Positions 50,077 through 55,571 of a DNA stretch of 64,000 nt are shown here, one piece after another. The notes beneath the pieces are model-generated. The model searched no databases, was not told the DNA's origin, and saw only the letters and a list, made by a program, of their open reading frames with translations. The position numbers were made by a program, and so were the translations under genes. Positions within the stretch are counted from its first letter, which is position 1. Each line of letters begins with the position of its first letter. Source of the DNA: Pseudanabaena sp. FACHB-2040 (GTDB taxonomy: Bacteria; Cyanobacteriota; Cyanobacteriia; Phormidesmidales; Phormidesmidaceae); NCBI RefSeq assembly GCF_014696715.1, contig NZ_JACJQO010000008.1, positions 1 through 64,000 on the forward strand, in the 5' to 3' direction.

Positions 50077-50775
50077 CTAACCCACGGCTGAAGCTGCCGA
50101 GTTACGCTTTAACACGCCATCTTCCATGTGGATGAGGCGATCTGCGACGTCTAAAATTCGGTTGTCGTGGGTTACTAGCAAAATTGTGCAGCCTTGCTCT
50201 TTTGCCAGAGACTGCATTAGGTTAACCACATCTCGCCCTGATTTGCTGTCTAGCGCGGCAGTAGGTTCGTCAGCAAGGACCAGTTTGGGATGGCTAACTA
50301 GTGCTCGTGCGATCGCAACCCTCTGTTTTTGTCCGCCCGATAGCTCATCTGGATAATAGTCGATGCGCTCTCCCAAGCCGACCTGGTTTAGCATCGCAAC
50401 CGACCGCGCTTTCATATCTGCGGAAGTTAGCTCTCGATGCAGTTCTAGACCCATCTTGACGTTCTGTAGGGCCGTCAAACTGCTGTGCAGGTTGTGTGCC
50501 TGAAAAATGTATCCGTGGTGCTTGCGGGCTTGCGTCAGCTGTCGAGAAGTTGCCCCGCACAATTCTTGCCCCAGGACTTGTAAGCGGCCAGATTGAGCAG
50601 ACCGTAGCCCACCGATCAACGTCAGCAGCGTTGTTTTTCCAGAGCCTGAAGGCCCAGTCATGATCACAATCTCGCCTGCATTGATTTCGAGATTGATATC
50701 AAATAAAACCTGCTTACGCAGCTGACCTTGGCCAAAGGTGTGGTCGAGATTTTGAACCGAAATAGCGATAGCCAT
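50077..50775 (-). CDS. devA: DevA-type ABC ATPase
   Basis: A 232-residue MacB/DevA-family ATPase from ATG 50775 (MAIAISVQNLDHTFGQGQLR). Walker A GPSGSGKT is at 41-48, the signature LSGGQKQR and Walker B LVLADEPTAALDS follow, and the switch is LLVTHD. DevA powers the DevBC export machine. Its start lies 8 bases after the devC stop. In filamentous cyanobacteria devBCA exports heterocyst glycolipids, but paralogues in non-heterocystous strains export other compounds. Here the operon context suggests detoxification or export of a monooxygenase product. Confidence 0.92.
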   Translation of the reverse strand: MAIAISVQNLDHTFGQGQLRKQVLFDINLEINAGEIVIMTGPSGSGKTTLLTLIGGLRSAQSGRLQVLGQELCGATSRQLTQARKHHGYIFQAHNLHSSLTALQNVKMGLELHRELTSADMKARSVAMLNQVGLGERIDYYPDELSGGQKQRVAIARALVSHPKLVLADEPTAALDSKSGRDVVNLMQSLAKEQGCTILLVTHDNRILDVADRLIHMEDGVLKRNSAASAVG

Positions 50776-50783
50776 TATTCGCT

Positions 50784-51959
50784 TTAAAACATATCTGCTG
50801 GATCTGCGGACTGAAGCTTGCGGGTTGCGATCGCACCTGAAAGCGCACACATCACAACCGTCAGCACAAGGACAAAGGCTGCTCTTGAAGCCGTCATGTA
50901 AATCGGTAAAGCCGTTGCTCGAGCTGCCAGGGTATACAGCCCCAGGGGCAAAACGGCACCGGGGATAAATCCGAGAAAGGCCAGGATAATTGCCTCTTCA
51001 AACACGATGCCCAGTAAATAGGAATTGCCGTAACCCATTGCTTTGAAAGTCGCATACTCCTTCAAGTGAGCATTGACATCGGTGGATAGAACCTGATAAA
51101 CAATCACAACGCCCACCACAAATGCCATGACAGTTCCTAGCCCAAAGACAAATCCAATTGGGCTGGCAGTTCTCCAATAGGTTTCCTCAAACTGCACATA
51201 CTCTTGAACCGTCAGCACGCGCACATCTTCGGGCAAATAGGAGGCTAGAGCAGCGGCCACCTGCTGAGGATCGGAGTCTGATTGCACCTGAATCAGCCCC
51301 AGGCTAATGCTGGCAGCCTCTCGGCGCGGAAAAAGCTGGAGAAAGGTCTGATCGCTGACCATCAGGTTAGCATCTGCGCCAAAAGATGCCCCCAGGCTAA
51401 ACAGTCCGGCAATCGTCAATGTGCGACGATCAACTTCAGTGGTGATGGGGTTGCCCTGGTCTACCTGTGCGATCGCATCGGCATACTTGCCTCTCGCACC
51501 CCGATCAAAGAGAACTGTGTCTGGCAACTTCAGCTTGTCGAGCTGCTGATTGACTTCTGGTAGCTCAAAGGCTGGCTCATCTGGCCTAAATCCCAACACC
51601 TGCACCGTAGCGTTCAGACGGGTTTGGGGATTTCTCCAGGTGATGCTGCTGATATACAGCGCAGTTGCCGACTCGACACCTGGAACATCCCTTGCCTGCA
51701 GCAGTCGCCGCCGCGAAAAGGTTGATAGATTTTGCAGATTAAGGGCTTTGGGACTGAGCAAAACGATATCGGCTGACATGGCGTGACTAACGCGGGTATT
51801 GCTGTCGTACAGCGCATTTTGAAAGCCGAGCTGCATAAACATCAGCACATCTGCAAACGCAATACCGGCTAGGGCAACCAGCAAGCGACTTTTTTCATGG
51901 CTCAGCTGTAGCCATCCCAGGGGCGTGCGGCGCTGCAGCTGTTGAATAAATCCAATCAT
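50784..51959 (-). CDS. devC: DevC-type ABC permease
   Basis: A 391-residue MacB-like permease of the DevC type. The N-terminal LGWLQLSHEKSRLLVALAGIAFADVLMFMQLGFQNAL is typical, with one membrane helix. A large periplasmic domain at about 50-265 follows, then three helices including VFGLGTVMAFVVGVVIVYQVLSTDV and FLGFIPGAVLPLGLYTLAA. It overlaps devB by 4 bases. It forms the inner-membrane part of an exporter that works with DevB and an outer-membrane TolC-like channel that is not in this window. Confidence 0.92.
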   Translation of the reverse strand: MIGFIQQLQRRTPLGWLQLSHEKSRLLVALAGIAFADVLMFMQLGFQNALYDSNTRVSHAMSADIVLLSPKALNLQNLSTFSRRRLLQARDVPGVESATALYISSITWRNPQTRLNATVQVLGFRPDEPAFELPEVNQQLDKLKLPDTVLFDRGARGKYADAIAQVDQGNPITTEVDRRTLTIAGLFSLGASFGADANLMVSDQTFLQLFPRREAASISLGLIQVQSDSDPQQVAAALASYLPEDVRVLTVQEYVQFEETYWRTASPIGFVFGLGTVMAFVVGVVIVYQVLSTDVNAHLKEYATFKAMGYGNSYLLGIVFEEAIILAFLGFIPGAVLPLGLYTLAARATALPIYMTASRAAFVLVLTVVMCALSGAIATRKLQSADPADMF

Positions 51960-53146
51960 TGTTCAATCACCGCCTCAACCTGCAAATTTGTAAACTTAGC
52001 GGCTTTTTGGCTAGAGACCTCGTCCAAGCTGATATAAACCTCAACCACCCTGTCATCGATATTGGCGCTAGGGTCAGTGTTGACAACCGCCTGTCGGCGC
52101 ACCTGAGAACCCACGCGCTCAACCCTTCCTATCAGTTCGCCCGTAATGGAATCACTGGTGATTCGAACTCGTTGTCCAGCTTGAACTTTGCCGACATCGC
52201 TTTGATAGACTTCTGCAACTACCTGCATCTGCTGCGTTTGCCCAATCTCGGCAATGCCATCTGACGAGACAACTTCCCCCGCTCGGGTGTGAATATCGAG
52301 CACTTCCCCCGCCACAGGAGAACGCACGATGGACTGATCAAAACTTGCCAGCGCTTGGTTGCGAGCTGCGATCGCACGCTCTACTTCTGCCTGCGCCGAA
52401 CGCACATCAACAGGGCGCACCTCAGCAATTTGCTCCAGCGTTGCCCTGGCCCGATTCAGTTCTGGCGGAGCAACCGAACGGAGCCGATTGAGGTTAACCT
52501 GCGCTTCTTGGGCAGAGGCTTGAGCCGTTTCGAGGGCTAGGCGTCTGTTGTCACGCTCAGAGGCCGAAATCGCTCCCCTTTCGTATAGAGACTGGTAGCG
52601 ATCAAACTCGACCTGAACATTTCTCAGCTCTGACTGCAGCCGATCTACGGTGGCTGCTTGCGCGTCAATGCTGCCCTGACGTTCTGCAGTCAACCGTTCA
52701 ATTTCTGCCTGCTGGGCATTGATTTCACCCTGTTTTGCCCCCGCTTGAATCACGTCTAGTTGAGCCCGCGCTACATTCACCTGCTCCTCTGCCTCTGCAA
52801 GGGCGGCTTGGCGCTGATCGTGCGAGTCTAAAATAGCAATGACTTGGCCGGCTTGAATGCGATCGCCCTCCTGCACCAGCAGCTGTTCAACCCGGTTGCC
52901 CTGGCTGGCTGTGGGAGCCGACAGCGCAATCACTGTGCCCCGTGGCTCTAATCGCCCCAAAGCAGTGACTGTCTGAATCACAGGGGCCGCTATAGGGGCA
53001 GCCTCTTCTTGCTCAACCGAGGCTGTGAGCACCCATCGCAACGCCGCCGTGCCAACGACAGCTAACAGTACTACGCCTGCGATCGCAATGACTCTTTGAG
53101 AGATGGCCTTAGTAGATTGTTTCCTATCTTGAGCTGTGCCCTGCAT
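51956..53146 (-). CDS. devB: DevB-type membrane-fusion protein
   Basis: A 396-residue periplasmic adaptor. One N-terminal helix (VIAIAGVVLLAVVGTAAL) is followed by the lipoyl-like half LGRLEPRGTVIALSAPTASQ. A coiled coil at about 110-250 is rich in Ala/Glu/Gln (EEQVNVARAQLDVIQAG, ETAQASAQEAQVNLNRL). The second lipoyl half IVRSPVAGEVLDIHTRAGE and a beta-barrel domain complete it. It starts 95 bases after the monooxygenase stop and is the first dev gene. Regulation is probably through the TetR operators at 54.86-54.91 kb. Confidence 0.92.
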   Translation of the reverse strand: MQGTAQDRKQSTKAISQRVIAIAGVVLLAVVGTAALRWVLTASVEQEEAAPIAAPVIQTVTALGRLEPRGTVIALSAPTASQGNRVEQLLVQEGDRIQAGQVIAILDSHDQRQAALAEAEEQVNVARAQLDVIQAGAKQGEINAQQAEIERLTAERQGSIDAQAATVDRLQSELRNVQVEFDRYQSLYERGAISASERDNRRLALETAQASAQEAQVNLNRLRSVAPPELNRARATLEQIAEVRPVDVRSAQAEVERAIAARNQALASFDQSIVRSPVAGEVLDIHTRAGEVVSSDGIAEIGQTQQMQVVAEVYQSDVGKVQAGQRVRITSDSITGELIGRVERVGSQVRRQAVVNTDPSANIDDRVVEVYISLDEVSSQKAAKFTNLQVEAVIEQ

Positions 53147-53241
53147 AAGTAATGAACTCCTAAAATGCAGAAAGTTAGGAAGCTATAGGGACCTTGAATG
53201 GTCCTTGCTGCTTTTCTTTTCAGTTCAATTAGATTTTCAGT

Positions 53242-54834
53242 TCAACTGGATAAAGCTGAGCTAAGAGTACGCCCAACGACCTTATTGAAATAGCCTTTGA
53301 GATCGTCTAAAGCGCCATCGGCGGAGATCAGCGCAATGTAGTTATCGGGTCGCAGCAGCACCTTAAACGGTTCACGACTGCCAAAGATCTCAACCACTTT
53401 CGGATAGAGCGGAATGATGTGAAAATCTACGCAGCCGCCGTATTCAGCTTCAAGGTTGGGCTTCAAATGCGCATAGTCCTGTTGCCCATCTGAAAACATA
53501 ATTAGGTGAAACTTAGGACTGCGAAGCTGGTCGTAAACGTTTTTGCCATTAACTGAAAAATATGGCATTCGATCTCCAGCTTTGACTTCAAACTTGTGGT
53601 CATGCTGATGTTGACTTAAGGAACTATCACGGTGGTCCAGCCCAATTTGAGAGATCATTGGAAATAAAAGTTTCTTTGCTGCGTCAAACTGAGACACCAG
53701 CCCGACCAGGCTTGGCAAAATGTTTTCGCGAAAGAAGCGGAAATGCCAGCGATCGCTGGCTGCCACATCAAAAAACTGATCAGTGGTTTGCAGCAGCCGT
53801 TTGGCATTGGCTACCCGTTCCTCGTCGTAAGTTTCTAGCAGCGAGTCCTGAGCTTTGTCTTGCAAAACAAAGGCAAGCTTCCAGGCAAGGTTATAGGCAT
53901 CTTGAATGCCTGTGTTCATGCCCTGCCCTCCTGCAGGCGTGTGGACATGAGCTGCATCACCAGCCAAAAAACATCTGCCAACCGAGAAGGTTTCTGCCTG
54001 CCGAGTATGCACTTTGTAGCTCGAAAACCAGAGTACGGTCTTGATGTCTAAAGGCTGTTGTACCAACTCTTTGATTTTGGGCTCAACTGCTTCGAAGGAG
54101 ACTTCCTGATCAACCCGATCTTCGTATTCAGGTAGGTTACCAATCAGCCGCCAACGGTTTTCACCCTGCATTGGTGCCATCAGCACAAAAGAGTCTTCGC
54201 CTAAGACAGGATACGCCGTGTTCTCTTCCCTTGGAAATTCCATTTGCACATCAGCGACATAAAATAAGCGCGGATGCGTTGACCCTTCAAAGGGCAAATC
54301 AAGCAGCTTGCGAGTAGGACTACCAGCTCCATCACACCCCACGAGATAACGTGCTTCGAGCGTTTGCGTTTCGCCGCTGGAAGTTCTAACAACTGCCCTC
54401 ACTTTGTCTGTATCTTGGGTCAAAGTCTCCAGTTCGGTCTGCCAATGCACTGCTTTACCGTTGCGCTGCAGATGCTCATACAGCAGACGCTCGTTTTTGC
54501 TCTGTTCATACACGAGCATGAAGGGAAAGGGGCTAAGACCTGCGCCAAAGTTTGAAAAGTCGAGACGGGCACGGACCTTGCCGTCGTGCATGACGGCCAC
54601 AGTTCGCACCTGTTCACCCCCGGCAACAGCCTTTTCTGCCAGTCCCACTTGGTCGTAAATTTCCAGCGTGCGGGCGTGGACTACCAGCGCCTTAGACAGT
54701 TCTGTAACCCCTTTTTTCTGGTCGAAGATTACAAAATCAATGTTGTAGTGCATTAGCTGCACAGCCAGCGAGAGCCCTGTCGGGCCGGCTCCAACGATAA
54801 TCACATCCGTTTGAACCGTGGCATCTGACATCAT
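53242..54834 (-). CDS. FAD-dependent aromatic monooxygenase (PheA/TfdB family)
   Basis: A 530-residue flavoprotein hydroxylase. The FAD motif GAGPTG is at 15-20, the DG motif is in RYLVGCDGAGSPTRK, and the GD motif is CFLAGDAAHVHTPAGGQGMN. A C-terminal thioredoxin-like domain (about 430-525) ends the protein, as in phenol and polyketide hydroxylases. It adds oxygen to a phenolic or quinonoid substrate using NAD(P)H. The start has AGGAGG 4 bases before the first ATG (54834) and 7 before the second (54831). It is the first gene of the monooxygenase-devBCA operon and divergent from tetR. Confidence 0.88.
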   Translation of the reverse strand: MMSDATVQTDVIIVGAGPTGLSLAVQLMHYNIDFVIFDQKKGVTELSKALVVHARTLEIYDQVGLAEKAVAGGEQVRTVAVMHDGKVRARLDFSNFGAGLSPFPFMLVYEQSKNERLLYEHLQRNGKAVHWQTELETLTQDTDKVRAVVRTSSGETQTLEARYLVGCDGAGSPTRKLLDLPFEGSTHPRLFYVADVQMEFPREENTAYPVLGEDSFVLMAPMQGENRWRLIGNLPEYEDRVDQEVSFEAVEPKIKELVQQPLDIKTVLWFSSYKVHTRQAETFSVGRCFLAGDAAHVHTPAGGQGMNTGIQDAYNLAWKLAFVLQDKAQDSLLETYDEERVANAKRLLQTTDQFFDVAASDRWHFRFFRENILPSLVGLVSQFDAAKKLLFPMISQIGLDHRDSSLSQHQHDHKFEVKAGDRMPYFSVNGKNVYDQLRSPKFHLIMFSDGQQDYAHLKPNLEAEYGGCVDFHIIPLYPKVVEIFGSREPFKVLLRPDNYIALISADGALDDLKGYFNKVVGRTLSSALSS

Positions 54835-54857
54835 GGTTCCTCCTGGTGTAAAAGCGG

Positions 54858-54878
54858 TAAACTAAACCGGCTAGTTTA
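54858..54878. promoter_or_regulatory. TetR operator, site 1
   Basis: A perfect palindrome TAAACTA-N7-TAGTTTA (centre AACCGGC) in the promoter between the monooxygenase and tetR. The twin site lies 31 bases away, which equals three helical turns and puts both on the same face of the DNA. Confidence 0.8.
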
Positions 54879-54888
54879 GCTATGCGTT

Positions 54889-54909
54889 TAAACTAAACCG
54901 ACTAGTTTA
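54889..54909. promoter_or_regulatory. TetR operator, site 2
   Basis: The second copy, TAAACTA-N7-TAGTTTA (centre AACCGAC), differs from site 1 by one base in the centre. It overlaps the first bases of the predicted tetR -10 box, so bound repressor would shut off tetR and, with site 1, the monooxygenase operon. Confidence 0.8.
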
Positions 54910-54913
54910 TAAT
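54908..54913 (+). promoter_or_regulatory. -10 box of tetR
   Basis: A perfect TATAAT overlaps the first ATG of the tetR frame at 54912. Transcription from it would start near 54920, which makes that ATG unusable and favours the ATG at 54954. The -35 region (about GCGTTTA near 54884) is weak. Confidence 0.5.
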
Positions 54914-55571
54914 GTCAAGGGAAAACAGCCGTTTAGCGTCAAAAACAACCCGGATGAGACAGGCAAAATCTGGACGCCCGGAGAGACAGCTCTCTCCAGA
55001 AAAAACCGAAGCCATTTTAGAAGGGGGAATGCAGGAGTTTTTGACCCACGGCTATGCGGCAACCACGATGGACCGAGTTGCGATCGCAGCAAAAGTCTCA
55101 AAGGCCACGGTATATAGCCACTTTCAGGACAAAGAAGGCTTGTTTATTGTCCTCATACAGCGTCTGGTTGAGCAAAAGTTCCAGTCTATCTTTGGTGCAG
55201 AGGATGACCGGATTTTGCAGATGCCACCCCAAGACGTTCTGAAAAGTTTTGCCAACCGAGCTCTCGATATTGGGGCTACAGAGCCGCAGTTTCTCAACTT
55301 TATGCGGCTAATTTTGGGGGAGTCAGGGCGGTTTCCGCAGCTCGCTCGCGCTTTTGTTCACAACATTGAACAGACCGCCTTTAGTAGGCTCTGTCACTAC
55401 CTCACGAACTGTCCCCAACTCAAGCTAGCTGACCCTGAAGCGACAGCCCGAATTTTTGTGGGTGCAATTGTGCATTTCATGATCGTGCAGGAAATGCTGC
55501 ATGGGAAAGATATTTTGCCGATGGAACGCGATCGCCTTGTCAATAGCTTGGTTGGCTTGATTGTAGGGTGA
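54912..55571 (+). CDS. TetR-family repressor
   Basis: A TetR regulator of up to 219 residues. The open frame begins at ATG 54912, but a TATAAT box overlaps that codon, so the real start is probably ATG 54954 (MRQAKSGRPERQLS), giving 205 residues. The DNA-binding helix-turn-helix is AILEGGMQEFLTHGYAATTM, followed by VAIAAKVSKATVYSHFQDKE, the family's most conserved segment. The C-terminal ligand domain has no assigned inducer. It is divergent from the monooxygenase-devBCA operon and separated from it by two identical palindromes. Confidence 0.92.
   Translation: MSRENSRLASKTTRMRQAKSGRPERQLSPEKTEAILEGGMQEFLTHGYAATTMDRVAIAAKVSKATVYSHFQDKEGLFIVLIQRLVEQKFQSIFGAEDDRILQMPPQDVLKSFANRALDIGATEPQFLNFMRLILGESGRFPQLARAFVHNIEQTAFSRLCHYLTNCPQLKLADPEATARIFVGAIVHFMIVQEMLHGKDILPMERDRLVNSLVGLIVG

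Follow-up and report, generated by a model that had tools for sequence, protein, structure and literature searches.

A TetR gene, paired candidate operators and a monooxygenase-devBCA gene group suggest an inducible chemical-defence operon in a cyanobacterium

The 64-kb stretch of DNA analysed here (the window) carries on its minus strand a gene for a group A FAD-dependent monooxygenase (MO) followed by devB, devC and devA, with a TetR gene divergent from them. We consider it probable that MO-devBCA is an inducible, locally regulated operon for chemical defence (detoxification/efflux), repressed by TetR and induced by a ligand, in which oxidation by MO is combined with export by DevBCA. The reading is built on the genes and their order, on the operators and their conservation, and on the repeated pairing of MO genes with this switch. 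From these we infer a promoter and the following course of events. TetR would bind two operators, which overlie the MO-devBCA promoter and are located directly upstream of the TetR gene, and when bound would repress the operon and probably itself. Repression would lift once TetR is bound by a small molecule, for which aromatic or quinone-like compounds and antibiotics are the likeliest candidates. MO, presumably co-transcribed with the dev genes, would then oxidise the inducing compound or a relative of it, and DevBCA, together with a TolC-type channel encoded elsewhere, would pump the compound or its product out, the two activities working in series or in parallel. The locus is a genuine and conserved regulatory unit, ordinary as an efflux operon but informative as a variant.

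MO (53242..54834, minus strand) encodes 530 aa and was assigned by its FAD_binding_3 domain (E 3e-86), motifs, structure model and fold matches. The three genes that follow, all on the minus strand, are adjacent, and each scores above the curated cut-off of its DevBCA family model: devB (51956..53146), a membrane fusion (adaptor) protein, with 335.6 bits on TIGR02971 (cut-off 129); devC (50784..51959), a MacB-type permease, with 491.9 bits on TIGR01185 (cut-off 290.35); and devA (50077..50775), the ATPase, with 374.4 bits on TIGR02982 (cut-off 295.8). The TetR/AcrR-family repressor gene (54954..55571, plus strand) encodes 205 aa from its probable start and has TetR_N and TetR_C_7 domains. All five genes, and the two palindromes described below, lie where a previous sequence-only reading had put them, and the domains were confirmed by Pfam and NCBIfam. 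The same gene order is found in G091, a genome of a different family, with identities of 81% for MO, 87% for TetR and 91% for DevC. A longer devA ORF opens with GTG at 50850; the start is probably the ATG ending at 50775, because the G091 homologue starts likewise. The TetR ORF opens at 54912, and its start is probably the ATG at 54954, because the G091 ORF begins at the matching MRQAKPGR, which is common to L035 and L041, and because the ATG at 54912 falls inside the presumed -35 box.

devB and devC overlap by 4 nt, devC and devA are 8 nt apart, and MO and devB are separated by 95 nt. On the operon strand of the 95-nt gap a consensus scan gave no terminator-like or promoter-like site, and the gap folded no better than shuffled sequences. 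Gene order, short gaps and the same grouping in nine other genomes (G091, G050, G444, G440, G441, G439, G561, G557 and G555) support the earlier proposal that MO and dev would share a transcript. Nearby lie a 361-aa gene without a Pfam match and a gamma-glutamyltranspeptidase gene; beyond them are ORFs judged ferritin-like by eye.

The gap between MO and the TetR gene holds two 21-bp sites, operator 1 (TAAACTAAACCGACTAGTTTA, 54889..54909) and operator 2 (TAAACTAAACCGGCTAGTTTA, 54858..54878), 31 bp apart from start to start. Both match TAAACTA-N7-TAGTTTA with no mismatch. They had been described as two identical palindromes; this is right for the arms and wrong for the whole sites, since the spacers (AACCGGC and AACCGAC) are one base apart. 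Sequence reading places a presumed -35 box (TTGACA, 54913..54918, minus strand) 17 nt from a presumed -10 element (TAGTTT, 54890..54895, minus strand), and TTGACA is also enriched near the operators of relatives (see below). The two elements frame operator 1, which overlaps the spacer between them and the -10 element. Operator 2 lies further downstream, between the promoter and the MO start and ahead of AGGAGG (54839..54844, minus strand), the probable MO ribosome-binding site. The presumed MO-dev promoter was absent from the consensus-scan listing. A TetR_N domain, a divergent gene and a palindromic candidate operator on the presumed promoter are together what is expected of a TetR/AcrR repressor.

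Perfect matches to TAAACTA-N7-TAGTTTA occur twice in the 64-kb window, both in the MO-TetR gap only. With up to three mismatches the window has four matches versus 1.16 expected, a count reached in 2 of 100 shuffles. A tighter form, TAAACTANNCNGTTTAGTTTA, with up to three mismatches, occurs in the 6.28-Mb genome only at these two places, and its reversed-pattern control gave 3 and 2 chance matches. As the own-genome count at this threshold is not above the control, what counts is that the sites are free of mismatches, come as a pair and fall in the MO-TetR gap. A regulon search with the tight pattern in six genomes (up to three mismatches) exceeded the control only through low-mismatch sites beside TetR genes. 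A looser pattern was useless for this purpose, true matches being fewer than reversed-pattern matches in 11 of 11 genomes. TetR probably acts at this locus alone.

A TetR profile built from eight loci was searched in 388 genomes of the class, 210 of which gave a match at E≤1e-25. We compared 87 TetR loci, namely the 80 best-ranked further loci together with the window, G091, G050, Calothrix, two Rhizonema and Chamaesiphon, and sorted the neighbours on the divergent side by BLAST to the window's proteins. devB or devC without MO was found in 67 loci, MO with dev in four and MO only in six; one locus had another ABC exporter and nine were other. The gene order noted in the window holds, but the broader survey gives another picture, with dev and no MO in most of the 87 loci. 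Set against this commonest layout, the window's operon is a TetR-devBCA unit with MO placed between promoter and devB.

An operator consensus, TAAACTAAACNGTTTAGTTTA, was drawn up by eye from some of the 87 loci. With a threshold of at least 15 of 20 positions, a candidate operator was found in 78 of the 87, versus 0.4 expected from base shuffles. It is present in 63 of the 67 loci with dev and no MO, in 4/4 with MO and dev, in 5/6 with MO only, in the single ABC locus (1/1) and in 5/9 of the others; at least two copies, 22-34 bp apart, occur in 60 of the 87. An exact TTGACA stands no more than 9 nt upstream of the operator in 43 of the 78 loci versus 88 of 4350 random positions, the loci with two sites having had two chances. 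The operator tracks this subfamily of TetR proteins and overlaps the presumed promoter, which supports the idea that TetR would exert its control at these palindromes.

A second, related TetR gene of the own genome (42%; L272, G000:C5) faces a dev cluster with two tandem devC genes, where the operator was not found. A plasmid search with TetR gave two records, one adjoining HlyD-ABC genes and without an operator at 14/20 or above, the other adjoining a family-28 glycosyltransferase gene and reaching 14/20; neither was counted. Related TetR genes in L127, L258 (Nostoc sp. C052 plasmid pC052_B) and L273 face an HlyD-ABC type exporter, not devBCA. The gene of a probable membrane protein of 169-177 aa separates devB from devC in L121 and L124 (no Pfam match for the L121 copy, which was scanned) and lies directly opposite TetR in L122, where no dev was seen.

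MO has FAD_binding_3 with the GxGxxG, DG and GD motifs of group A flavoprotein monooxygenases, and residues G15, G17, G20, D168, G169, G292 and D293 are invariant in alignments. Its scores on the NCBIfam models shown all stay under the curated cut-offs. The family label "PheA/TfdB-type" of the sequence-only reading could not be kept: the phenol 2-monooxygenase model NF006144 gave 184.6 bits against a cut-off of 560. Rifampin monooxygenase was rejected likewise, with 225.1 bits on the rif_monoox equivalog NF033145 against a cut-off of 800. The nearest solved sequences in a profile search were rifampin monooxygenases (best 5kow), then polyketide hydroxylases; phenol hydroxylases stood mid-list, and the PieE chain, labelled 2,4-dichlorophenol 6-monooxygenase, came last of 39. 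A structure model (pLDDT 85) gave OxyS, MtmOIV, PieE and PgaE near the top in Foldseek, with Rox and others too, and p-nitrophenol and p-hydroxybenzoate hydroxylases first in VIA-align; fold comparison also ranks phenol-type hydroxylases high. By sequence MO is nearer to Rox/PgaE-type hydroxylases than to PheA/TfdB. The model fits many group A structures about equally, and the fold therefore names no substrate. Aromatic hydroxylation is plausible, and partner genes for a glutathione transferase (GST) and a glutathionyl-hydroquinone reductase point toward it too. Searching plasmids with MO yielded 28 records, none of which reached 60% identity.

These partner genes come from relatives. In G195 a gene 147 bp after MO matches GST 6gzf (E 3e-110), YqjG 3r3e (4e-101) and glutathionyl-hydroquinone reductase 4uss (2e-93), and in G172 a GST gene lies 98 bp after devA. 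Hydroquinone reductase, GST, TolC, DUF1400 and glutaredoxin are fitting company for detoxification, a theme of the sequence-only reading that the comparison upheld. A TolC-type channel is tied to devBCA-MO units in L342 and L349, and a DUF1400 hydrolase in L340, L342 and L349; L340 also has a glutaredoxin-containing 540-aa protein. DUF1400 stands behind devBCA too in L113, L133, L145 and L149 (the last two by BLAST only) and in the own-genome locus L279.

In the class sample, 33 of the 388 genomes carry MO matches at E≤1e-70, 37 in all. Their contexts cover 33 of the 37 matches (G173, G388, G331 and G324 were left out), and six of these belong to units with this TetR (G000, G091, G292, G050, G195 and G201). 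A family sample, drawn from the family to which G307 belongs (217 genomes), had 47 MO matches; context was read in short loci for 30 of these, and in longer stretches for the remaining 17 as well as, again, for 11 of the 30. Here the TetR gene is divergent from devBCA-MO in G444, G440, G441 and G439, from devBCA-MO-MO in G561 and from devBCA-MO-DUF1400-glutaredoxin protein in G557. G555 has, in this order, a TetR of this type, a second TetR gene, a 166-aa gene, an operator, devBCA, TolC, MO and DUF1400. The TetR gene faces MO with no dev in view in G549, G550, G551 and G563. Under this switch MO can precede devB, stand between devC and devA, follow devA, or have no dev with it. In L198, L199, L203 and L155 the contig stops at or near MO, and in G551 shortly after it; partner genes there could be out of view. 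In G463 (L331, 6084-9371) all that is left of dev between the intact operators and a full-length MO is the 3' part of devB and the 5' part of devC, and a dev-less unit can thus arise by deletion; L331 is an apparent intermediate of dev loss. In G195, which has the TetR-MO arrangement, a second TetR-dev unit has only one weak operator-like site, which makes shared control there doubtful.

The MO gene might be an unrelated insertion between switch and devBCA that merely shares the promoter. We regard this as very unlikely, even with dev but no MO as the commonest layout (67/87) and with MO relatives as patchy as 33 of 388 genomes. Close MOs are found under other TetR genes too: the 17 closest of the family sample (E≤2e-281) include eight with this TetR and nine behind other, co-directional upstream TetR genes, and the short loci of these nine showed no dev and no operator of this type. 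MO likewise follows co-directional upstream TetR genes in L031, L033 and L034. Chance has more difficulty with the MO lineages that stand repeatedly under this switch. As rough indications only (the binomial assumes 2 units of 6 genes per 5000 and independent matches, and the profiles were partly built from loci already known as adjacent), 2 of 33 MO matches lie in such units in the class sample minus the four adjacent profile loci (binomial P 0.003), and 6 of 33 (3 genera) in the family sample minus both genera with profile loci, which counted one per genus makes 3 (binomial P 7e-5). In the 87-row TetR tree the four rows with MO and dev take 4 changes, equal to the shuffled mean, which makes them scattered but not by themselves separate gains. 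In the second MO tree (56 rows, leaving out 17 distant or duplicate sequences; the first leaves out L071, which gave no MO frame), the ten rows with TetR and dev need 6 changes and the seven with TetR only need 6, the window and G091 being sisters counted once; each of these changes could be a gain or a loss, and the tree program gave a warning that long branches meet. Several distant lineages of FAD monooxygenases share this switch and seem to have come under it on several independent occasions, a pattern that points to a role in chemical defence.

Rox and TetX inactivate antibiotics, and MO may do the same while DevBCA independently exports the parent drug, with no two-step path. This is a variant of the detoxification/efflux operon proposed above, differing only in the order of steps, and we give it a substantial chance, somewhat short of even. 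The best solved sequence match of MO is a rifampin monooxygenase (5kow), although MO reaches just 225 of 800 bits on the corresponding model, far under the cut-off, and its fold names no substrate. The same switch drives dev alone in most loci and MO without dev in some, and action in parallel is therefore just as probable as the two successive steps, hydroxylation of an aromatic compound and then its export, that the sequence-only reading proposed; most TetR-dev units lack MO and several TetR-MO units have no dev in view, and neither partner therefore needs the other. An alternative that we think unlikely is biosynthesis and export, in which MO tailors an endogenous metabolite, DevBCA exports it and TetR senses the product. 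Polyketide tailoring enzymes are close fold neighbours of MO, and the accessible portions of PMC4236562 and PMC8401325 place DevB/DevC genes in the hapalindole and tolyporphin clusters. However, the near neighbours of the window's operon include no biosynthetic cluster, and the TetR unit of relatives mostly has dev without MO.

Returning to the TetR-controlled defence operon, we tentatively suggest a wider reading. TetR gene, double operator and divergent promoter could form a cyanobacteria-wide "socket" for chemical defence, with devBCA as the standard load and with oxidising, conjugating/reducing and export genes plugged in and out repeatedly; such a system would be modular, oxidising, conjugating and exporting compounds of a quinone-like or aromatic kind. 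Its loads may include FAD monooxygenases; GST, glutathionyl-hydroquinone reductase and the glutaredoxin protein; and DevBCA, TolC and HlyD-ABC2. The conserved repressor/operator pair offers a direct handle on the inducers of a large pump family: inducing compounds for such pumps could be found with a single operator-reporter construct and a single TetR protein, and the repeated pairing with MO narrows the chemistry to search.

The own genome encodes six DevC-type permeases, and its OEP/TolC-type matches, some of them partial, all lie outside the MO-dev operon. We found no DevBCA-monooxygenase operon and no such operator in the open-access literature, where subscription papers are mostly outside coverage. 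DevBCA pumps are best known for heterocyst glycolipid export, and a 2019 study by Shvarev is said to be the primary work on DevBCA-like drug exporters. The idea that the window shows a new use for a Dev exporter has been overtaken, as the DevBCA-like pumps Alr4280/1/2 and Alr3647/8/9 of Anabaena sp. PCC 7120 are described as drug exporters, with a part in drug resistance, in the available text of PMC8277102. They share with the window's genes the DevB/DevC/DevA families of a MacB-type tripartite pump, a likeness at family level, but that text describes no monooxygenase or TetR control for them. The same source gives HgdD at least seven DevBCA paralogues as partners. The DevBCA-HgdD heterocyst glycolipid exporter also has the same pump protein families, as far as the text of PMC8277102 goes; it serves developmental glycolipid export, whereas the window's dev genes follow MO behind a presumed TetR-type promoter. 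A heterocyst glycolipid role for the latter is disfavoured by the TetR context only. Rifampin monooxygenase Rox and the PgaE/OxyS/MtmOIV-type hydroxylases have the FAD_binding_3 fold and are among the best profile and fold matches of MO, but at about 25-29% identity (Foldseek rows). AefR/AcrR-type repressors resemble the window TetR in its TetR_C_7 (AefR-like) domain, with AefR 3cdl and NalC 8ke8 among its six PDB matches, whereas the window TetR belongs to a subfamily with a candidate operator of its own.
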